A DNA stretch of 64,000 nt, taken from positions 1 to 64,000 of the forward strand of contig NZ_ACLR01000088.1 in assembly GCF_000174775.1 (NCBI RefSeq), written 5' to 3'. Position 1 is the stretch's first letter, and each line of letters starts with the position of its first letter. The notes beneath the pieces were generated by a model. That model saw only the letters and a list, made by a program, of their open reading frames with translations. It did not search any database and was not told the origin of the DNA. The position numbers and the translations under genes are program-made. Shown piece by piece: positions 32,644-40,213 of the stretch. The stretch comes from Porphyromonas uenonis 60-3 (lineage in GTDB: Bacteria; Bacteroidota; Bacteroidia; Bacteroidales; Porphyromonadaceae).

Positions 32644-32776
32644 ACCAGGCAAAGATACTATCGCAGGCTACAGACTCATGTTGAGCTCAGCACTCTAGAG
32701 CTCCCAACATTAGTCTGTAGCCTGCAAACACTTCAACGGATCCTAGACTCCGCAAATCTCACAAGTGACCCTTTGT
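32644..32776 (+). repeat. Long hairpin repeat, copy 1 (133 bp)
   Basis: This copy shares about 100 bases with 37051-37154. It has GCAGGCTACAGACT, a loop of about 35 bases, AGTCTGTAGCCTGC, then a conserved 3' part (AAACACTTCAACGG...CTAGACTCCGCAAATC...CCCTTTGT). It lies just upstream of the TonB receptor promoter. Stretch 32587-32876 holds only this repeat and the promoter. Confidence 0.75.
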
Positions 32777-32814
32777 AAGAACGAACAAACCACAGCAATT
32801 ACCCATCATTAGGT

Positions 32815-32846
32815 ATTGGTAAAGAGGAGAATAGCTAGTACTTTTG
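32815..32846 (+). promoter_or_regulatory. Promoter of the TonB receptor operon
   Basis: ATTG (32815-32818), a 20-base spacer and TACTTTTG (32839-32846) fit the -33/-7 pattern with one mismatch in the -33 box. The element lies 30 bases before ATG 32877. It overlaps an in-frame TTG at 32844, which rules that codon out as the start. Confidence 0.6.
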
Positions 32847-32876: not shown

Positions 32877-35261
32877 ATGAGTACCTATTCGCATCATAGC
32901 TCTTGGCTGGGTCGCACGGTATATAGCCTCATATTAGTCGCACTGTCATCGACCGTCTGCACGCTCGTCGCTCAGAGCAATCCTGGGCGACACACCTACA
33001 GCGGTGTGGTGCTAGACGCTACCTCACAGGAGCCACTCATCGGCGCCTCACTGTGGATTGAGGAGCTACATCAAGGCGTAGCTACGGATGCTGACGGTGC
33101 CTTCACCTTGTCTCTACCAACTAAGGGGGAGTATCATATCAAGGTAAGCTATGTAGGGTACAAAGACTACACCCTCCACTATAGTAGCAAGCGGGCAAGC
33201 CAAGCTCCTCAGCGTATCCTCCTCTCAAGCTCTACGGCGGAGCTAGGCACAGTCTTCGTTCATGGTAAGGGGCAGGCACAGCGACTGCGTGAGATCCCCT
33301 CGTCCATCACCGTCATTGACACACGAGAGCTGCACGGTACGGTCTCTTCGCTCAACGAAGTCCTCAATCGCTCTATGGGGGTCAAGGTGACCAGCACGGG
33401 TGGCATCGGGAGCACTTCCCGTATGATCATACAGGGGCTAGACGGCAAGCGCATTGCTATCTTTGTCAATGGGGTACCTATCGGGAGCTCTGATCAAACT
33501 AGTCTTGACGCCTTTGCGGTAGACCAAATAGATCATGTAGAGGTGTACAAGGGGATCATCCCCTCGTGGCTCGGTGGCGAGGGACTAGGCGGAGCAATCA
33601 ATATAATCTTGCGTCACGAGGAGCAACAAGACCATCTGACCGCCTCCTATGAGGTAGGCTCCTTCCATACGCACAAGGGGAGCTTGCGCGCCAATAAGTA
33701 CTTGCCCGCTCTCGGACTGAACCTTTCCCTTGCTCTCCAAGGGCTTTACACGGACAATGACTATACCTTTGACTCCCCCTTTGAGCAAGGACTGGTGGTA
33801 CGGCGAGATCATGACACCTATGCGAACTATGGAGGCTCTCTGTCCCTGTCCCTGCACAAGCCGTGGATAGACCATCTGTCGCTCTCGCTAGGTGCTGATC
33901 GCACCTATCAGGAGATACAGGGAGGTGTCCTCAATCTGCAAAACAACATCCAGCATGCCCACACCCACACGACGAGCCTACAGGGTGCGCTATCAGTCGC
34001 AAAGAGCATACTAGACGGCAAGCTCTATCTAAGCTCGACAAGTATCGTCGCGTACCAGTTACTGAACCATGTGGACACCTCGCACTACTGCTACGACTTC
34101 GCTGGGCGCACCTTCCCCAGTGGCTCCGGTCAAGGCGAGATAGGTGGCATGCCCAATGACTCACACGACCAGCTCATCAACATACAGGAGCAGCTAAACC
34201 TGCGCTACCAGCTGTCGCCCGCTCATCGCCTCCTAGGCAACATCTCTTACCGCTTCGCACGCCGTGATCCACACGATGAGCTTGCCAGTAAGTATACCAA
34301 ACTCGCTGTGGGTGGCTATCCTGGGCAGATCCACTCGCTTATCACTGGTCTGACACATGAGTGGAAGCTGTGGGACGAGCGCATTACCAATGAGCTAGGT
34401 GCCAAGCATGTCTACTTCTATTCCTCGGTACCTCCACTAGGCTTCACCATCTACGAGCAGGATGACGCTCCACTCACCAGCTCACGCTCCGTATGGGGCG
34501 GTAGCGAGGCTATCTCTATCAAGGCTCTCCCCAATCTTACGCTCAAAGGCTCTACGCAATACACCATGCGCACCCCTCGTGCCGAAGAGATCATCGGTGA
34601 CGGCGTACTCATCTACCCCTCGCCTAAGCTAGCCCCCGAGCGGAGCCTTAACTTCAACCTAGGCGTCAACTGGCTCTGCAACCCTGACGACTACCCCAAC
34701 TGCCGCATTGACCTCAACGGATACTATATGAATGTGAGGGATATGATCAAGCTAGTCATGGAGAGCCTTATCATGAAGTACACAAACTTCGGCCAGGTGC
34801 GCATAGCAGGCGTAGAGGCGGAGCTCTGTGCCAACCTCTTCCCCTGGCTAACCATTCGCTCCAACATCACCTATCAAGATGCACGTGATAGGATGAGGAC
34901 AGCGATCGGGGGCGGCCAGAACTTCCACTACAACTATCGTGTACCCAACATGCCTTACCTCTTTGGCAATGCGGAGATCCGTCTGCAGGGCGACCAGCTA
35001 CTCCTCTCCGATGATCATGGCGAGGGCTTTATAGCGTGCGAGTACACGGCACCCTTTAGCTATGGGTGGGAGGCGAGCAAGGTGAGCAGACTACAGGTAC
35101 CTCGCCGATGGAACTTCAACGTGGGAGTGCAGTACACGCTCTTCCAGCATTACCACCTAGCTCTAGAGGTCAATAACCTCTTCAACACAAGACAATGGGC
35201 CGAGTATCAGTACCCACTCCCGACACGCTCGCTACGTGCCAAGCTCAAGGTCACATTCTAA
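32877..35261 (+). CDS. TonB-dependent outer membrane receptor, XusA-like (probable siderophore/iron uptake)
   Basis: This 794-aa protein would import a bound ligand across the outer membrane using TonB energy. It has a signal-anchor-like N-terminus ending near 'CTLVAQS', a carboxypeptidase-regulatory-like domain (about 35-115: 'YSGVVLDATSQEPLIGASLWI...GVATDADGAFTLSLP'), a plug domain (about 125-240: 'IPSSITVIDTRELHG', 'RMIIQGLDGKRIAIFVNGVPIG', 'VEVYKGIIPSWLGGEGLGGAINI'), and a 22-strand-type barrel ending in Phe ('LRAKLKVTF'). The next gene encodes a DUF4374 lipoprotein, the arrangement of the B. thetaiotaomicron XusAB xenosiderophore system. The ligand is therefore inferred to be a ferric siderophore or similar. 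ATG 32877 is used. Confidence 0.88.
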   Translation: MSTYSHHSSWLGRTVYSLILVALSSTVCTLVAQSNPGRHTYSGVVLDATSQEPLIGASLWIEELHQGVATDADGAFTLSLPTKGEYHIKVSYVGYKDYTLHYSSKRASQAPQRILLSSSTAELGTVFVHGKGQAQRLREIPSSITVIDTRELHGTVSSLNEVLNRSMGVKVTSTGGIGSTSRMIIQGLDGKRIAIFVNGVPIGSSDQTSLDAFAVDQIDHVEVYKGIIPSWLGGEGLGGAINIILRHEEQQDHLTASYEVGSFHTHKGSLRANKYLPALGLNLSLALQGLYTDNDYTFDSPFEQGLVVRRDHDTYANYGGSLSLSLHKPWIDHLSLSLGADRTYQEIQGGVLNLQNNIQHAHTHTTSLQGALSVAKSILDGKLYLSSTSIVAYQLLNHVDTSHYCYDFAGRTFPSGSGQGEIGGMPNDSHDQLINIQEQLNLRYQLSPAHRLLGNISYRFARRDPHDELASKYTKLAVGGYPGQIHSLITGLTHEWKLWDERITNELGAKHVYFYSSVPPLGFTIYEQDDAPLTSSRSVWGGSEAISIKALPNLTLKGSTQYTMRTPRAEEIIGDGVLIYPSPKLAPERSLNFNLGVNWLCNPDDYPNCRIDLNGYYMNVRDMIKLVMESLIMKYTNFGQVRIAGVEAELCANLFPWLTIRSNITYQDARDRMRTAIGGGQNFHYNYRVPNMPYLFGNAEIRLQGDQLLLSDDHGEGFIACEYTAPFSYGWEASKVSRLQVPRRWNFNVGVQYTLFQHYHLALEVNNLFNTRQWAEYQYPLPTRSLRAKLKVTF

Positions 35262-35300
35262 CTACTCAAGATAATTATAAACCTAATAAATAATAGAACG

Positions 35301-36512
35301 ATGAAGCATCTTAGCTCACTAATCCTAACAGCCCTCTTAGGGCTAGTCACACTCAGCTCTTGCCAAAAGGAGGAAAGCACTCCGCAGCAGACTCAGGAAG
35401 CCAAGTTTATCTACGCCTCACAGGTGGAGAATGCCTTCCAGCTCACGCCCCTAGCAGACCTCGCAGAGGGAGTGCAGACCTCATTTGACAATTCTCAGAC
35501 CCTCCCCGTGGGGCACCTCTTCCTAGAGAAGTACGGAGACTACATCTATGCCATGTCGGGCAGTATGTATGGCTACGGAGGCGAGCAGACGCTACGCAAG
35601 TATCAGATGAGCGAGGGCAAGCTCAAGGAGGTTGCCACGCTCTCTTTCAAGGGCTCTCCCAATGTCATCGAGATTATCTTCGCCAGCGACACGAAGGCTT
35701 ACGGCGTGACCTGCGCTAGCCGTGGTCAGCTCGTCATCTTTAACCCCTCCACCATGCAGGAGATGGGCGAGATAGACCTCTCTCCTTATGCTGCTACAGA
35801 CCCCAAGGCTGAGGCTCCTGACAAAGATCCCGATGCTGGGACTGGTATCGTGCGAGATGGCAAGCTCTTCCTCTGTCTCAATCAGACAAAGTCTATGATG
35901 GAGCTATACGATGAGCCAGCCTCAGTGGCGGTCATTGATGTCGCCACGGACAAGGTCGAGAAGGTCATCAAGGACGCTCGCGTACAGAGCCTGGGTATGG
36001 TCGGACACACCAATGCCATCCTTGACGAAGCAGGTAACATATACTTCTATTCAGGACCTCGCAGTGCCATGTTTGGCAAGCATGAGGGTATCTTACGGAT
36101 CAAAAAGGGCGAGACCGACTTTGACAAGGAGTACTACGTCTCCGTGACCAAAGCTGATGGCGCAGAACCCACCTCTTATGGTATGACGATGACCTACTAC
36201 AAGGGCAAGGTCTACTTCTTCCTGGAGAAGCCTTCGCTCGTTGTTGATCCCAACGACAAGACTTTTACCAAAAACAAAGACTTCGTCCCCTATGAGCTAG
36301 ACCTCAAGAGTGGCAAGGGCAAGATACTCCCACTGCCCGCATCTAGTGGCTGGAGTGCTAATGCCACCATCGCCTACAACGGCAAGATCTACTTCGGCAT
36401 ACACGCTAAAGACGGTATGGGCTTCTACAGCTACGATCCAGCTACAGGGCAGGGCAGCAACAAGCCCGTAGTGACTACACCTGCTGGCATCTATAAAATC
36501 ATAAAGCTCTAA
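35301..36512 (+). CDS. DUF4374-family surface lipoprotein, XusB-like
   Basis: A 403-aa lipoprotein (lipobox LSSC, Cys at residue 21) with repeated beta-propeller-like blades: 'FIYASQV', 'DYIYAMSGSMYGYGGEQTLRKYQM', 'QLVIFNPSTMQEMGEIDL', 'VAVIDVATDKVEKVI', 'GILRIKKGE', 'KIYFGIHAKDGMGFYSYDPATGQ'. This matches my recollection of DUF4374. In Bacteroides thetaiotaomicron the DUF4374 protein XusB captures ferric enterobactin and works with the adjacent TonB receptor XusA. Here it follows the receptor by 39 bases. Family assignment is good; ligand is inference. Confidence 0.8.
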   Translation: MKHLSSLILTALLGLVTLSSCQKEESTPQQTQEAKFIYASQVENAFQLTPLADLAEGVQTSFDNSQTLPVGHLFLEKYGDYIYAMSGSMYGYGGEQTLRKYQMSEGKLKEVATLSFKGSPNVIEIIFASDTKAYGVTCASRGQLVIFNPSTMQEMGEIDLSPYAATDPKAEAPDKDPDAGTGIVRDGKLFLCLNQTKSMMELYDEPASVAVIDVATDKVEKVIKDARVQSLGMVGHTNAILDEAGNIYFYSGPRSAMFGKHEGILRIKKGETDFDKEYYVSVTKADGAEPTSYGMTMTYYKGKVYFFLEKPSLVVDPNDKTFTKNKDFVPYELDLKSGKGKILPLPASSGWSANATIAYNGKIYFGIHAKDGMGFYSYDPATGQGSNKPVVTTPAGIYKIIKL

Positions 36513-36519
36513 ACAACCC

Positions 36520-36924
36520 ATGAATAGACAAACTCGCACGGCCTTCCTATGGGCTTTCATCCCGATGGGATACATCTTCCACACGCTCTGTGAGCTGATG
36601 CCACTCTTTGCTGGTCTTAGCATAGCAACGGAAGAGATGACCACAGAGATGCTCCCAGCCATGACAACCTTCACGGGATCGGCACTCTACTTAGTACCAC
36701 TCGTCGGACTGCTCTGCAGCTGCTACGGCAAGCGACGCTGGAGCACTATCGTCAGTTTCGTACTCGCTTGTCTCACCCTACTGCTCAATATCTGTCACCT
36801 CTGCACAGACCTCCTACCCCACTTCACGTGGGCACAGGCAGCCATACTACCATTCGTCTGCGTCATCGCTGCCCTACTCGTCATAGATCTTTGGAAAGAG
36901 CTACGCACGAGCAAGGCTCAATGA
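36520..36924 (+). CDS. Small four-helix membrane protein of the XusAB-like locus
   Basis: A 134-aa protein with four hydrophobic segments at about 10-32, 50-70, 78-98 and 105-125, and a short basic cytoplasmic tail. It has scattered Cys and His ('YIFHTLCELMP', 'LLCSCYGKRR', 'NICHLCTDLLPHF') that could bind metal or heme. I do not recognise a family. It starts 7 bases after the DUF4374 gene, before a strong terminator, so it belongs to the operon. It occupies the place taken by the PepSY membrane protein XusC in Bacteroides but is much shorter. Confidence 0.7.
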   Translation: MNRQTRTAFLWAFIPMGYIFHTLCELMPLFAGLSIATEEMTTEMLPAMTTFTGSALYLVPLVGLLCSCYGKRRWSTIVSFVLACLTLLLNICHLCTDLLPHFTWAQAAILPFVCVIAALLVIDLWKELRTSKAQ

Positions 36925-36971
36925 GCGCAACGCTTTGACGGTTAGATAGAAGTTAGACAACAAGAACGAGA

Positions 36972-37004
36972 GGAGGCTGTCACACTAGTTGACAGCCTCC
37001 TTTT
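36972..37004 (+). terminator. Rho-independent terminator of the TonB receptor operon
   Basis: GGAGGCTGTCA, a 7-base loop and TGACAGCCTCC form an 11-bp perfect stem followed by TTTT, 47 bases after the small membrane protein gene. Confidence 0.88.
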
Positions 37005-37050
37005 GTATGCGCTTATACCGCTAGAGTGAATAAGATTCTGTACCATCTGA

Positions 37051-37154
37051 ACCTGGCAAAGATACTATCGCAGGCTACAGACTAACATTAGTCTGTAGCC
37101 TGCAAACACTTCAACGGACCCTAGACTCCGCAAATCTCACAAGTAGCCCTTTGT
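37051..37154 (+). repeat. Long hairpin repeat, copy 2 (104 bp)
   Basis: This copy has GCAGGCTACAGACTAA-CA-TTAGTCTGTAGCCTGC, a perfect 16-bp hairpin with a 2-base loop (37069-37102), then the same 3' part as copy 1. Compared with copy 1 the loop has lost about 29 bases. The two copies are direct repeats flanking the three-gene iron uptake block. Confidence 0.75.
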
Positions 37155-37218
37155 CAGAAGGGATAGCCCGCAGCCTGAATTCGTTACCTAGAGAGGGGGA
37201 TATTTTTGAGAAACTTAT

Positions 37219-37276: not shown

Positions 37277-40213
37277 ATGAAACGAAATCTATTATTCCTC
37301 TACAGCCTGCTCCTTGCACTGATACCGCTAGGTAGTGTGGCTCAGACTGCAACGAATGATGTGCTGACCTTTACGACAAGTAAGGCGGTCGGTGAGACTA
37401 TTCAAATAAGCCTTCAGTACCAAGGTCAGCTCAAGGTCGAGGGCCTTGAGAGTGTCCCTCCGAGCGCACCGTTTGAGCTCAGCATATCAACGGTCAAGCT
37501 CACGGCACAGACTGTCACTATCAAGGGGCAGCTCTTGCACCTTGCTATATACAACGACCAAAAGATAACCAGCCTCTCTGCGCCGAACCATACGACTCTA
37601 GAGAGGCTGCAATGCGTTAATAACCCTTCGCTCACAAGCCTCAACCTCTCTGGGTGTAATAAGTTGAACTATATATCCATCCTTGGTACAGGACTCAAGG
37701 ATACACATCTGACTCAGTTTATAGGGTCACTCCCCAAGGTAAAGGAGGGGAAGCTCAACTTCTATAATGCATACCAGAAGGCAACCCATGCTTACTGGAC
37801 TATTCAAGACATCCGAGATGCCAATGCTAAGGGGTGGCACGTTACTACCCTTGTAGGGCACGATAATGTGGAGCTTTACCCAGACGAGATCACTATCGGG
37901 GTCGATCCCGCAGTCAGTGAGGTGCTGAGTCTCTGGATCATCGGAGAGGGTGAAAATATCCCGCTCATCTCAAATATAGAAGGAAATCCCGTCATTGAGA
38001 GCGGAGATAAATTCACCCCTTATACCGTAACGCAGAAGTCAGTCGTCATCGGAGGCAATGTGAAGCTTTTTAAGGTGGAGGAGCTGAAGAACATCACCAG
38101 TATCAATCTAGGTAAGAATCGTAGCCTAACACACTTAGTCTGCACTAAGGGTAAGGTCAAGGAGCTGGGACTGTCGGAGTGCTCGTCCTTGAATCTCGTA
38201 GAGTGCTACGGTAATGGCATGCGAGGTGAGGCAACTACACGACTGATGTCTACACTGCCAGACCGCACCTCAGCGAAGGAGCCTGGCAAAATCTACTTCG
38301 TAGACGAAGCCTCCTCTGAAGCTCAAAAGAACAGCTACAGCGATACAGACCTCTTCCTCGCCAAGAACCGTGGCTGGGTCGTCTATCGTCGTCTCTCAAG
38401 TGGCAAATTCGAAGAGATCAAGCCCACTGGCACCTCTTACGATCAGATAACCTTTACCACGGCCAAAAAGGTCGGAGAGGGCTTCTTTATCCTCACAAAT
38501 CCCTCTAAACCTATAAGTGTACGTGGACTCAAGCTACTCTCTCAGAGTGAGAGTACGCCAGACAAGAATGCCATCGTCACGGCACAGGATATAACGCTCG
38601 TGGGTAATGTGCTGAGTCTCGTTCTTGCAGATCAGCAGATCACCGCTTTTGAGTCAAAGGACAACAAAGAGCTTCGGTCGCTAGTTATCTCAGGTAATAA
38701 GCTCACCAAGCTGGATCTCTCTACTTTCGAAAAGCTCGAAAGTGTGGTCTGTTTCGATAATCCGTTTGATAAGGAGGGCTCCGCTTTTACCTTATCACAC
38801 CTGCCTAATCGTACGAAAGAGGAGACACCTGGGGCTATCTCCTTTGTCTCTACTGCCAAGGGAGACCTTACGCCCACATACAGCTCAGCTGCCATCGCTG
38901 CTGCCAACGCGCTCAACTGGAAGGTGATGCAACGTGATCACGAAGGTAATGAGTCTGAGATCGTCCCCAAGATCAATGTCATCACCCTCGTTACGGACAA
39001 AGCTGTAGGTAGCGAGGTGACGATAGAGGCCAAGCTGGCCGATGCCCTTCCCGTCAAAGTAACGGGACTATCCGTTGCTGAGATTACTGCTGCCAATGCG
39101 GCTGGCAAGTTCACCCTAACGGCACAGACCGTCACCCTGACGGGCGATATTATCTCTCTAAGCCTCCCCGATGGCGAGTGGACGAAGATTGAGACCACGA
39201 CTGACTACGACAACCTCGAGTCTCTCGCTTACCCAAGGAATAAGGTGGTAGCTCCTGTTCTAAATACCCCTCGTCTCTCTATGCTGGACTGCCGCAATAA
39301 TGGAATGAGTGAGGCTGAGGTCAAGGCACTTATAGCCACTCTCCCTAACTTATCTAATGAGTCAGCTCAGATGTCAGAGAGAAAGGGTACGCTCCTCATA
39401 GCTGATGAGGCAAACGATACGCACGCAAATGTCTGCCCCGACGAAGCTATCCTGGCTGCTCAGACGAAAAACTGGGAGTCTACAGTACATCTAGGAGGTG
39501 AGGTGAGAGGCAAACTCTTTACCTCGGACAAGAACACCCTGCGCTTTGAGACAAAGCTCCCGATGAAGAGCAAAGTGCGCTTTACCCTTCATTACGCTGG
39601 CACCCTCCTTGCAGCTGATGGTCTTAGTACGCAGGACTATCTACCCGAGAGCTCAGACAGTGAGCAGGAGTGCGAGCTGACCGCGACCTTTGTTCGTCTT
39701 GTGGGTGACGTTGACCAGCTTAACATCACCGCTCAGCAGGTCACCCGCCTTGCTCTGCCTGGGCACAAGAGCATCGCAAAGATTGATTGTGCTGACAATG
39801 CGATCACCACGTTTGACCTCGCTGGCTGTGCGAAGCTACTCTTCCTCAACATGACGAAGAATGGGCTGACAGCAGAGCTCGTGTCGCAGCTGATCGCTCA
39901 ACTGCCTGATCGCTCTGCTGAGACAGACAAGGGTGAGCTACGTCTCTTCAACACCTACAAGGGTGCAGGCGAGACGAACGAAATAACCGCCGAGCATCTC
40001 AAGGCGGCTAAGGCTAAGGGCTGGCGTATCACAGACAGTAAGGCGGAGATTACAGAGCAACAAGTAGCTACGGATCTCGTCTTACGTCCCGACAGCACGG
40101 ATGATACGGTATACACACTCGAGGGTATCCGCCTCTTTATCCCAGCTAACGAGCTACCTGAAGGTATCTACATCATCGGCGGTAAGAAGGTAATCATCAA
40201 TCGCACTAAGTAA
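37277..40213 (+). CDS. Large secreted leucine-rich-repeat surface protein
   Basis: This 978-aa protein starts with a signal peptide ('MKRNLLFLYSLLLALIPLGSVAQ') and contains about four modules of 190-250 residues. Each begins with a strand-rich part ('LTFTTSKAVGETIQISLQYQGQ', 'ITFTTAKKVGEGFFI', 'ITLVTDKAVGSEVTIEAK', 'LRFETKLPMKSKVRFTLHYAG'), continues with short leucine-rich repeats ('LERLQCVNNPSLTSLNLSGCNKL') and ends near 'GW.V'. The C-terminus ('YTLEGIRLF...ELPEGIYIIGGKKVIINRTK') resembles the tail of type IX secretion substrates. It is probably displayed on the cell surface. Ligand or adhesion role is unknown. ATG 37277 is chosen for the signal peptide and the promoter position. Confidence 0.8.
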   Translation: MKRNLLFLYSLLLALIPLGSVAQTATNDVLTFTTSKAVGETIQISLQYQGQLKVEGLESVPPSAPFELSISTVKLTAQTVTIKGQLLHLAIYNDQKITSLSAPNHTTLERLQCVNNPSLTSLNLSGCNKLNYISILGTGLKDTHLTQFIGSLPKVKEGKLNFYNAYQKATHAYWTIQDIRDANAKGWHVTTLVGHDNVELYPDEITIGVDPAVSEVLSLWIIGEGENIPLISNIEGNPVIESGDKFTPYTVTQKSVVIGGNVKLFKVEELKNITSINLGKNRSLTHLVCTKGKVKELGLSECSSLNLVECYGNGMRGEATTRLMSTLPDRTSAKEPGKIYFVDEASSEAQKNSYSDTDLFLAKNRGWVVYRRLSSGKFEEIKPTGTSYDQITFTTAKKVGEGFFILTNPSKPISVRGLKLLSQSESTPDKNAIVTAQDITLVGNVLSLVLADQQITAFESKDNKELRSLVISGNKLTKLDLSTFEKLESVVCFDNPFDKEGSAFTLSHLPNRTKEETPGAISFVSTAKGDLTPTYSSAAIAAANALNWKVMQRDHEGNESEIVPKINVITLVTDKAVGSEVTIEAKLADALPVKVTGLSVAEITAANAAGKFTLTAQTVTLTGDIISLSLPDGEWTKIETTTDYDNLESLAYPRNKVVAPVLNTPRLSMLDCRNNGMSEAEVKALIATLPNLSNESAQMSERKGTLLIADEANDTHANVCPDEAILAAQTKNWESTVHLGGEVRGKLFTSDKNTLRFETKLPMKSKVRFTLHYAGTLLAADGLSTQDYLPESSDSEQECELTATFVRLVGDVDQLNITAQQVTRLALPGHKSIAKIDCADNAITTFDLAGCAKLLFLNMTKNGLTAELVSQLIAQLPDRSAETDKGELRLFNTYKGAGETNEITAEHLKAAKAKGWRITDSKAEITEQQVATDLVLRPDSTDDTVYTLEGIRLFIPANELPEGIYIIGGKKVIINRTK

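Follow-up and report, generated by a model that had tools for sequence, protein, structure and literature searches.

The XusABC xenosiderophore system of Bacteroides (BT_2065-2063) combines in one operon a TonB-dependent receptor (XusA), a DUF4374 lipoprotein (XusB) and an inner-membrane PepSY protein (XusC), which is credited, as is FoxB, with freeing iron by reduction in the periplasm. In the window, by which we mean the whole 64,000-nucleotide stretch of Porphyromonas uenonis 60-3 that was analysed (contig NZ_ACLR01000088.1, positions 1 to 64,000), three plus-strand genes at 32877-36924, separated by gaps of 39 and 7 bases, encode a receptor and a lipoprotein of the Xus kind and a small membrane protein, hereafter called M134. 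The ferrichrome-binding DUF4374 lipoprotein of Bacteroides fragilis, BfXusB (9hqe/9hqk), is encoded in a locus which carries a PepSY gene, unlike the operon in the window; XusB proteins of its length have no hook, and the short, hookless type has been linked with hydroxamate siderophores (PMC13142918). The HiuABC system of Caulobacter crescentus includes HiuC, a membrane protein of 61 amino acids which is predicted to bind the PepSY protein HiuB and is required for ferrioxamine use (PMC13001220).

32877-35261, plus strand: TonB-dependent receptor, XusA-like, 794 amino acids (Pfam: CarbopepD_reg_2, Plug and beta-barrel)
35301-36512, plus strand: DUF4374 lipoprotein, XusB-like, short type, 403 amino acids (Pfam, profile and Foldseek)
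36520-36924, plus strand: M134, four-helix membrane protein of an unnamed family, 134 amino acids (AlphaFold2 (AF2) helices and alignment of relatives)

An earlier note on this DNA had described the locus as XusAB-like with a new third component, and its assignment of the two upstream genes was upheld. Residues 36-793 of the receptor, nearly its full length, align with residues 24-792 of XusA of Bacteroides thetaiotaomicron (9gbc_A, E 2e-57). In the lipoprotein a lipobox (LSSC, at C21) precedes the residues QKEE, which is similar to a signal for surface export; it does belong to DUF4374 (37.2 bits against a Pfam cut-off of 25) and its length places it in the short type. A profile of eight such lipoproteins matched BfXusB (9hqe) with E 5e-16 and the B. 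thetaiotaomicron XusB only with E 2e-3. The AF2 model of the lipoprotein, made from two input sequences, is of low confidence (predicted local distance difference test, pLDDT, 57), and its best Foldseek match was BfXusB with ferrichrome (9hqk, E 1e-13), with BtuG-type B12 lipoproteins ranking after it. BfXusB is the nearest solved relative by both profile and fold and has a similar length, but its identity with the window lipoprotein is only about 18 %.

Like XusABC, the locus has an XusA-alignable receptor gene followed by a DUF4374 lipoprotein gene in one putative operon with a predicted inner-membrane protein, but the lipoprotein is short and far from the B. thetaiotaomicron XusB, and M134 has no PepSY or PepSY_TM match, or indeed a match to any family, in Pfam or NCBIfam. 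The locus would work like XusABC, but one defining feature, a PepSY gene in the operon, is missing, and it is named a XusAB-type operon whose third component differs, and not XusABC. For sorting DUF4374 loci, the presence of PepSY alone appears to be a poor criterion. The same order of receptor, DUF4374 lipoprotein and 134-amino-acid protein is found in three related Porphyromonas genomes (G017, G020 and G018), so that the linkage of the third gene proposed earlier holds throughout this group of four species, whereas more distant relatives of M134 are unlinked from DUF4374 and are mostly found at other iron or heme loci.

The AF2 model of M134 (pLDDT 74; predicted template modelling score 0.65) has helices at residues 3-30, 45-69, 72-97 and 104-133, in agreement with the four-helix protein without PepSY which had been read from the sequence. 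The protein is under purifying selection, with a ratio of nonsynonymous to synonymous substitution rates (dN/dS) of 0.11-0.25 across the four species. In an alignment of 29 sequences, 26 of them diverged (beyond the group of the window protein, identity to it is 17-32 %), the sole fully invariant columns were H21 and H93, located in predicted helices 1 and 3, respectively. W11 was invariant wherever the sequence was complete, and G17, four residues before H21, L110 and L120 were almost invariant. The cysteines were scattered and none was conserved in this alignment, so that of the several Cys and His residues pointed out previously only two His are retained as conserved. The charges at the N terminus, in the loop at residues 71-74 and at the C terminus suggest that both ends are cytoplasmic, in which case H21 and H93 would be close to the periplasmic side.

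Several candidate relatives of M134 were considered. DUF6326 (PF19851) is a distant relative by profile comparison (probability 94 %, E 1.5e-7), and both families have Leu-Trp where helix 1 begins, but DUF6326 lacks both His and the two cases seen are not in iron loci; none of the 17 M134 members scanned gave a DUF6326 match in Pfam. Fumarate reductase subunit C was the top weak Pfam match (E 0.007, below the cut-off, in four of the 17 members) and was not adopted. The structures matched with the M134 model by Foldseek and VIA-align, among them TARP, ROP, pectin methylesterase inhibitor and maquettes, are generic four-helix bundles, and the presence of a heme maquette among them provides no evidence for heme.

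The M134 family is wider than one locus, and its genomic contexts connect these di-His membrane proteins, which have no family name, with more than one kind of iron and heme system in Bacteroidota. Scanning the genome collection with degenerate patterns recovered relatives in Porphyromonas only, and profile searches of whole genomes were necessary to find some 25 further relatives (17-32 % identity) in about 1,100 Bacteroidota genomes; the viral contigs contained none. Members were present in 17 of 395 genomes sampled across the phylum, 7 of 395 across the class and 14 of 393 across the order, samples which overlap partly and include a few weak matches. Within the genus, six of 26 genomes have a member, four in the operon described here and two in a TetR-MMPL-LolA-DUF1302-ABC locus.

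In four genomes (L054, L056, L057 and L058) the M134 domain forms the C-terminal approximately 135 amino acids of a PepSY_TM protein (XusC/FoxB superfamily) of about 685-710 amino acids (Pfam PepSY_TM 6e-51 for the protein of L056). All four fused proteins have a TonB receptor nearby, and their M134 domains form a single clade with support of 100/99. The homology of M134 to PepSY_TM proteins is limited to this extra domain of some of them. PepSY_TM ferric-siderophore reductases such as FoxB share with M134 the presence of intramembrane His (predicted in M134), and it is a PepSY_TM protein to which the M134 domain is fused in these four genomes, but the window protein itself contains no PepSY domain; when the PepSY portion of a fused protein was used alone as a single-sequence query, FoxB was not reached. 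Between the receptor and the fused protein of L056 (6432-7062) there are two small membrane proteins of 113 and 101 amino acids, the second beginning MPANRKYL, which belong to no Pfam or NCBIfam family and occur as a pair also in L057 and L058.

Many of the other relatives are also encoded in iron or heme loci. Standalone genes adjoin TonB and HmuY genes in L053 and L094, with flavodoxin and PepSY_TM genes also a few genes away in L053, and TonB, DUF4876 and DUF6850 genes in L064, while MMPL-LolA-DUF1302-ABC loci contain a member in L018, L117 and L124. Further standalone members are found at TonB loci of other kinds. A TonB receptor was near six of 14 standalone loci, compared with about 10 % expected (binomial p about 0.0015). 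The expectation was derived from six genomes with one Plug domain per about 120-155 kb, leaving approximately 10 % of the genome within 6 kb of one, and the p value is rough because the 14 loci, one per taxonomic family and context, are an independent-locus count set by judgement. The MMPL and TonB contexts are spread over several clades of the tree, in which several deep branches are weak, suggesting that these associations probably arose more than once. The homologs of P. macacae and P. crevioricanis belong to another clade, which makes it improbable that they are orthologous to the window gene.

Under low iron, P. gingivalis increased expression of PG1019-22 by 21-214-fold and of PG1175-81 by 13-136-fold (PMC10434189), and a TetR/MMPL/LolA locus tops the list of its hemin-regulated genes (PMC10470040). 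By annotation, PG1019-22 and PG1175-81 correspond to two of the locus types that bear M134, and P. gingivalis loci of two such types rank among the most responsive to iron or hemin in that species; they are connected with the window by the kind of locus, M134 itself being absent from most of the genus. The MMPL/LolA and Xus kinds of locus meet in G001 (L021, 18-9207): genes for a TonB receptor and a DUF4374-like lipoprotein are immediately preceded there by an ABC-ABC-LolA-DUF1302-like run, which links the two kinds.

The fusion with PepSY_TM and the recurrence in iron and heme loci suggest that M134 helps to release iron in the cell envelope, and participation in periplasmic reductive iron release is the most economical reading of these contexts. 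On the explanation which we favour, and to which we give about an even chance, the operon imports carrier-bound iron and M134 is an inner-membrane partner, possibly heme-binding, in its reductive release. The cargo would be iron bound to a small carrier molecule, and a xenosiderophore is the likeliest one. By homology with the solved XusAB, the DUF4374 lipoprotein would bind the ferric complex at the cell surface and pass it to the XusA-like receptor, which would import it with energy from TonB. M134 would act in the next step, the release of the iron by reduction in the periplasm, with the His pair, which would lie close to where helices 1 and 3 reach the periplasm, most likely holding a b-type heme or a metal. 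The electrons would go either to the ferric complex itself or to a PepSY_TM reductase whose gene is located elsewhere, and the resulting Fe(II) would enter through FeoB. A FeoB gene is present in the genome, as are two PepSY_TM genes, both on other contigs than the operon. The earlier suggestion of an inner-membrane partner which reduces or transfers iron or heme has thus gained indirect support from the fusion, the loci and the His pair, which does not extend to a corrinoid.

The supply of electrons to PepSY_TM reductases has been stated to be unknown (PMC13038864). M134 is a direct candidate for it, and also for iron release after import in loci without XusC. A bolder form of the proposal, in which the family as a whole is a di-His, heme-b, quinol-fed electron-input subunit which a number of iron and heme uptake systems in Bacteroidota have in common, seems doubtful to us. 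If true, M134 would be the donor still missing from the picture, which supplies the electrons for ferric reduction in the periplasm; it would act by itself in the window operon, and elsewhere as a domain fused to PepSY_TM reductases.

Several observations weigh against the explanation which we favour. Foldseek with the M134 model, the kind of structure prediction and search proposed in the earlier note, returned generic four-helix matches only; the His pair may serve metal binding or structure instead of heme; several relatives (L095, L118-L120) are in loci without obvious iron genes; and the receptor-lipoprotein pairs of G001, G008 and G021 occur without M134. In the profile alignment those ferrichrome-contacting residues of BfXusB which could be aligned, W235, W323 and D352-G354, are not conserved in the window lipoprotein. 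P. crevioricanis (G019) has a relative of M134 yet no PepSY_TM match at all, implying that a PepSY partner is not obligate across the family. This last point also counts against the idea that M134 is not itself redox-active and is instead a structural or specificity partner of a PepSY_TM reductase encoded elsewhere in the genome. That idea, which we regard as rather unlikely, agrees with the close functional contact suggested by the fusion, with the two PepSY_TM genes available in trans and with the precedent of HiuC (PMC13001220). HiuABC likewise joins a TonB receptor to a small protein of the inner membrane, one which is connected with the PepSY-type handling of ferric hydroxamates, but HiuC, at 61 residues against 134, is about half as long, it is encoded with the PepSY protein HiuB, and no surface lipoprotein has been described; the two proteins are compared by description and length, HiuC serving as a precedent. 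Two His that remain invariant at 17-32 % identity would, moreover, hardly be needed for a purely structural role.

The same His pair could form the binding site of a small permease or metal chaperone, which would transport Fe(II), heme or some other metal through the inner membrane or keep the metal ready for FeoB. The four helices and the occurrence in siderophore-type as well as heme-type loci would suit such a function, as would the ZIP permease gene directly downstream of the relative in L121 and the cation efflux gene in L117. A protein of 134 amino acids and four helices is, however, small for a permease, the genome already has FeoB, and fusion with a reductase-type protein better suits a redox-linked role, so that we consider a permease or chaperone unlikely. 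Import of a corrinoid or heme in place of a ferric siderophore appears quite improbable: receptor and lipoprotein are nearest to XusA and XusB, an Rfam scan found no cobalamin riboswitch upstream of the operon, and the genome has a separate run of TonB receptor, 208-amino-acid HmuY-like lipoprotein and PepSY_TM protein (L097, 3664-8075), likely a HmuRY-like heme locus. What favours it is that BtuG-type lipoproteins are the next structural matches behind BfXusB, that relatives of M134 also occur with HmuY, and that Porphyromonas are heme auxotrophs (PMC12106395). The corrinoid role suggested in the earlier note found no support, with no such riboswitch found upstream and the BtuG-type lipoproteins ranking after XusB.

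A PepSY_TM gene is located beside cobalamin-type genes in the genome of the window (L096, 8337-9812), without an adjoining receptor and lipoprotein. G020 (L100, 7636-12785) likewise has a PepSY_TM gene next to cobalamin-type genes, but there it comes after the genes for a TonB receptor and for a lipoprotein of 432 amino acids, an arrangement like an XusABC operon.

The three genes of the window operon are flanked by two putative signals, the upstream one of the Bacteroidota -33/-7 promoter type (consensus TAnnTTTG).

32816-32846, plus strand: promoter-like site, TTGG-N19-TACTTTTG (-33/-7 type, read in the sequence)
36971-37004, plus strand: terminator-like hairpin, AGGAGGCTGTCA-CACTAGT-TGACAGCCTCCT, followed by TTT (sequence and hairpin scan)

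The -7 core TAnnTTTG is conserved in the three sibling loci, with differences at nn (TACTTTTG or TACCTTTG). The hairpin is among the matches of a scan in which such matches were no commoner than in shuffled sequences; it is retained 3' of the same gene in the three siblings, with a G-T replacement in the stem. Since both the promoter-like site and the T-run hairpin are kept in three sibling species, receptor, lipoprotein and M134 genes are best read as a single transcription unit. The Rfam matches upstream of the operon were miRNA models on a hairpin, far under the gathering score and without meaning.

A hairpin-forming inverted repeat (GCAGGCTACAGACT...AGTCTGTAGCCTGC), lying within about 110 bases of common sequence, is found on both sides of the operon (32644-32781 and 37050-37160). 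No other full-length pair was found in the genome, and the siblings carry the repeat upstream. A gene for a large leucine-rich-repeat protein (37280-40213) separates the operon from the conserved gene that comes next, with the second copy of the repeat just upstream of it. The gene is not found at that place in G017 and G020, suggesting the possibility that gene and repeat may have been acquired together.

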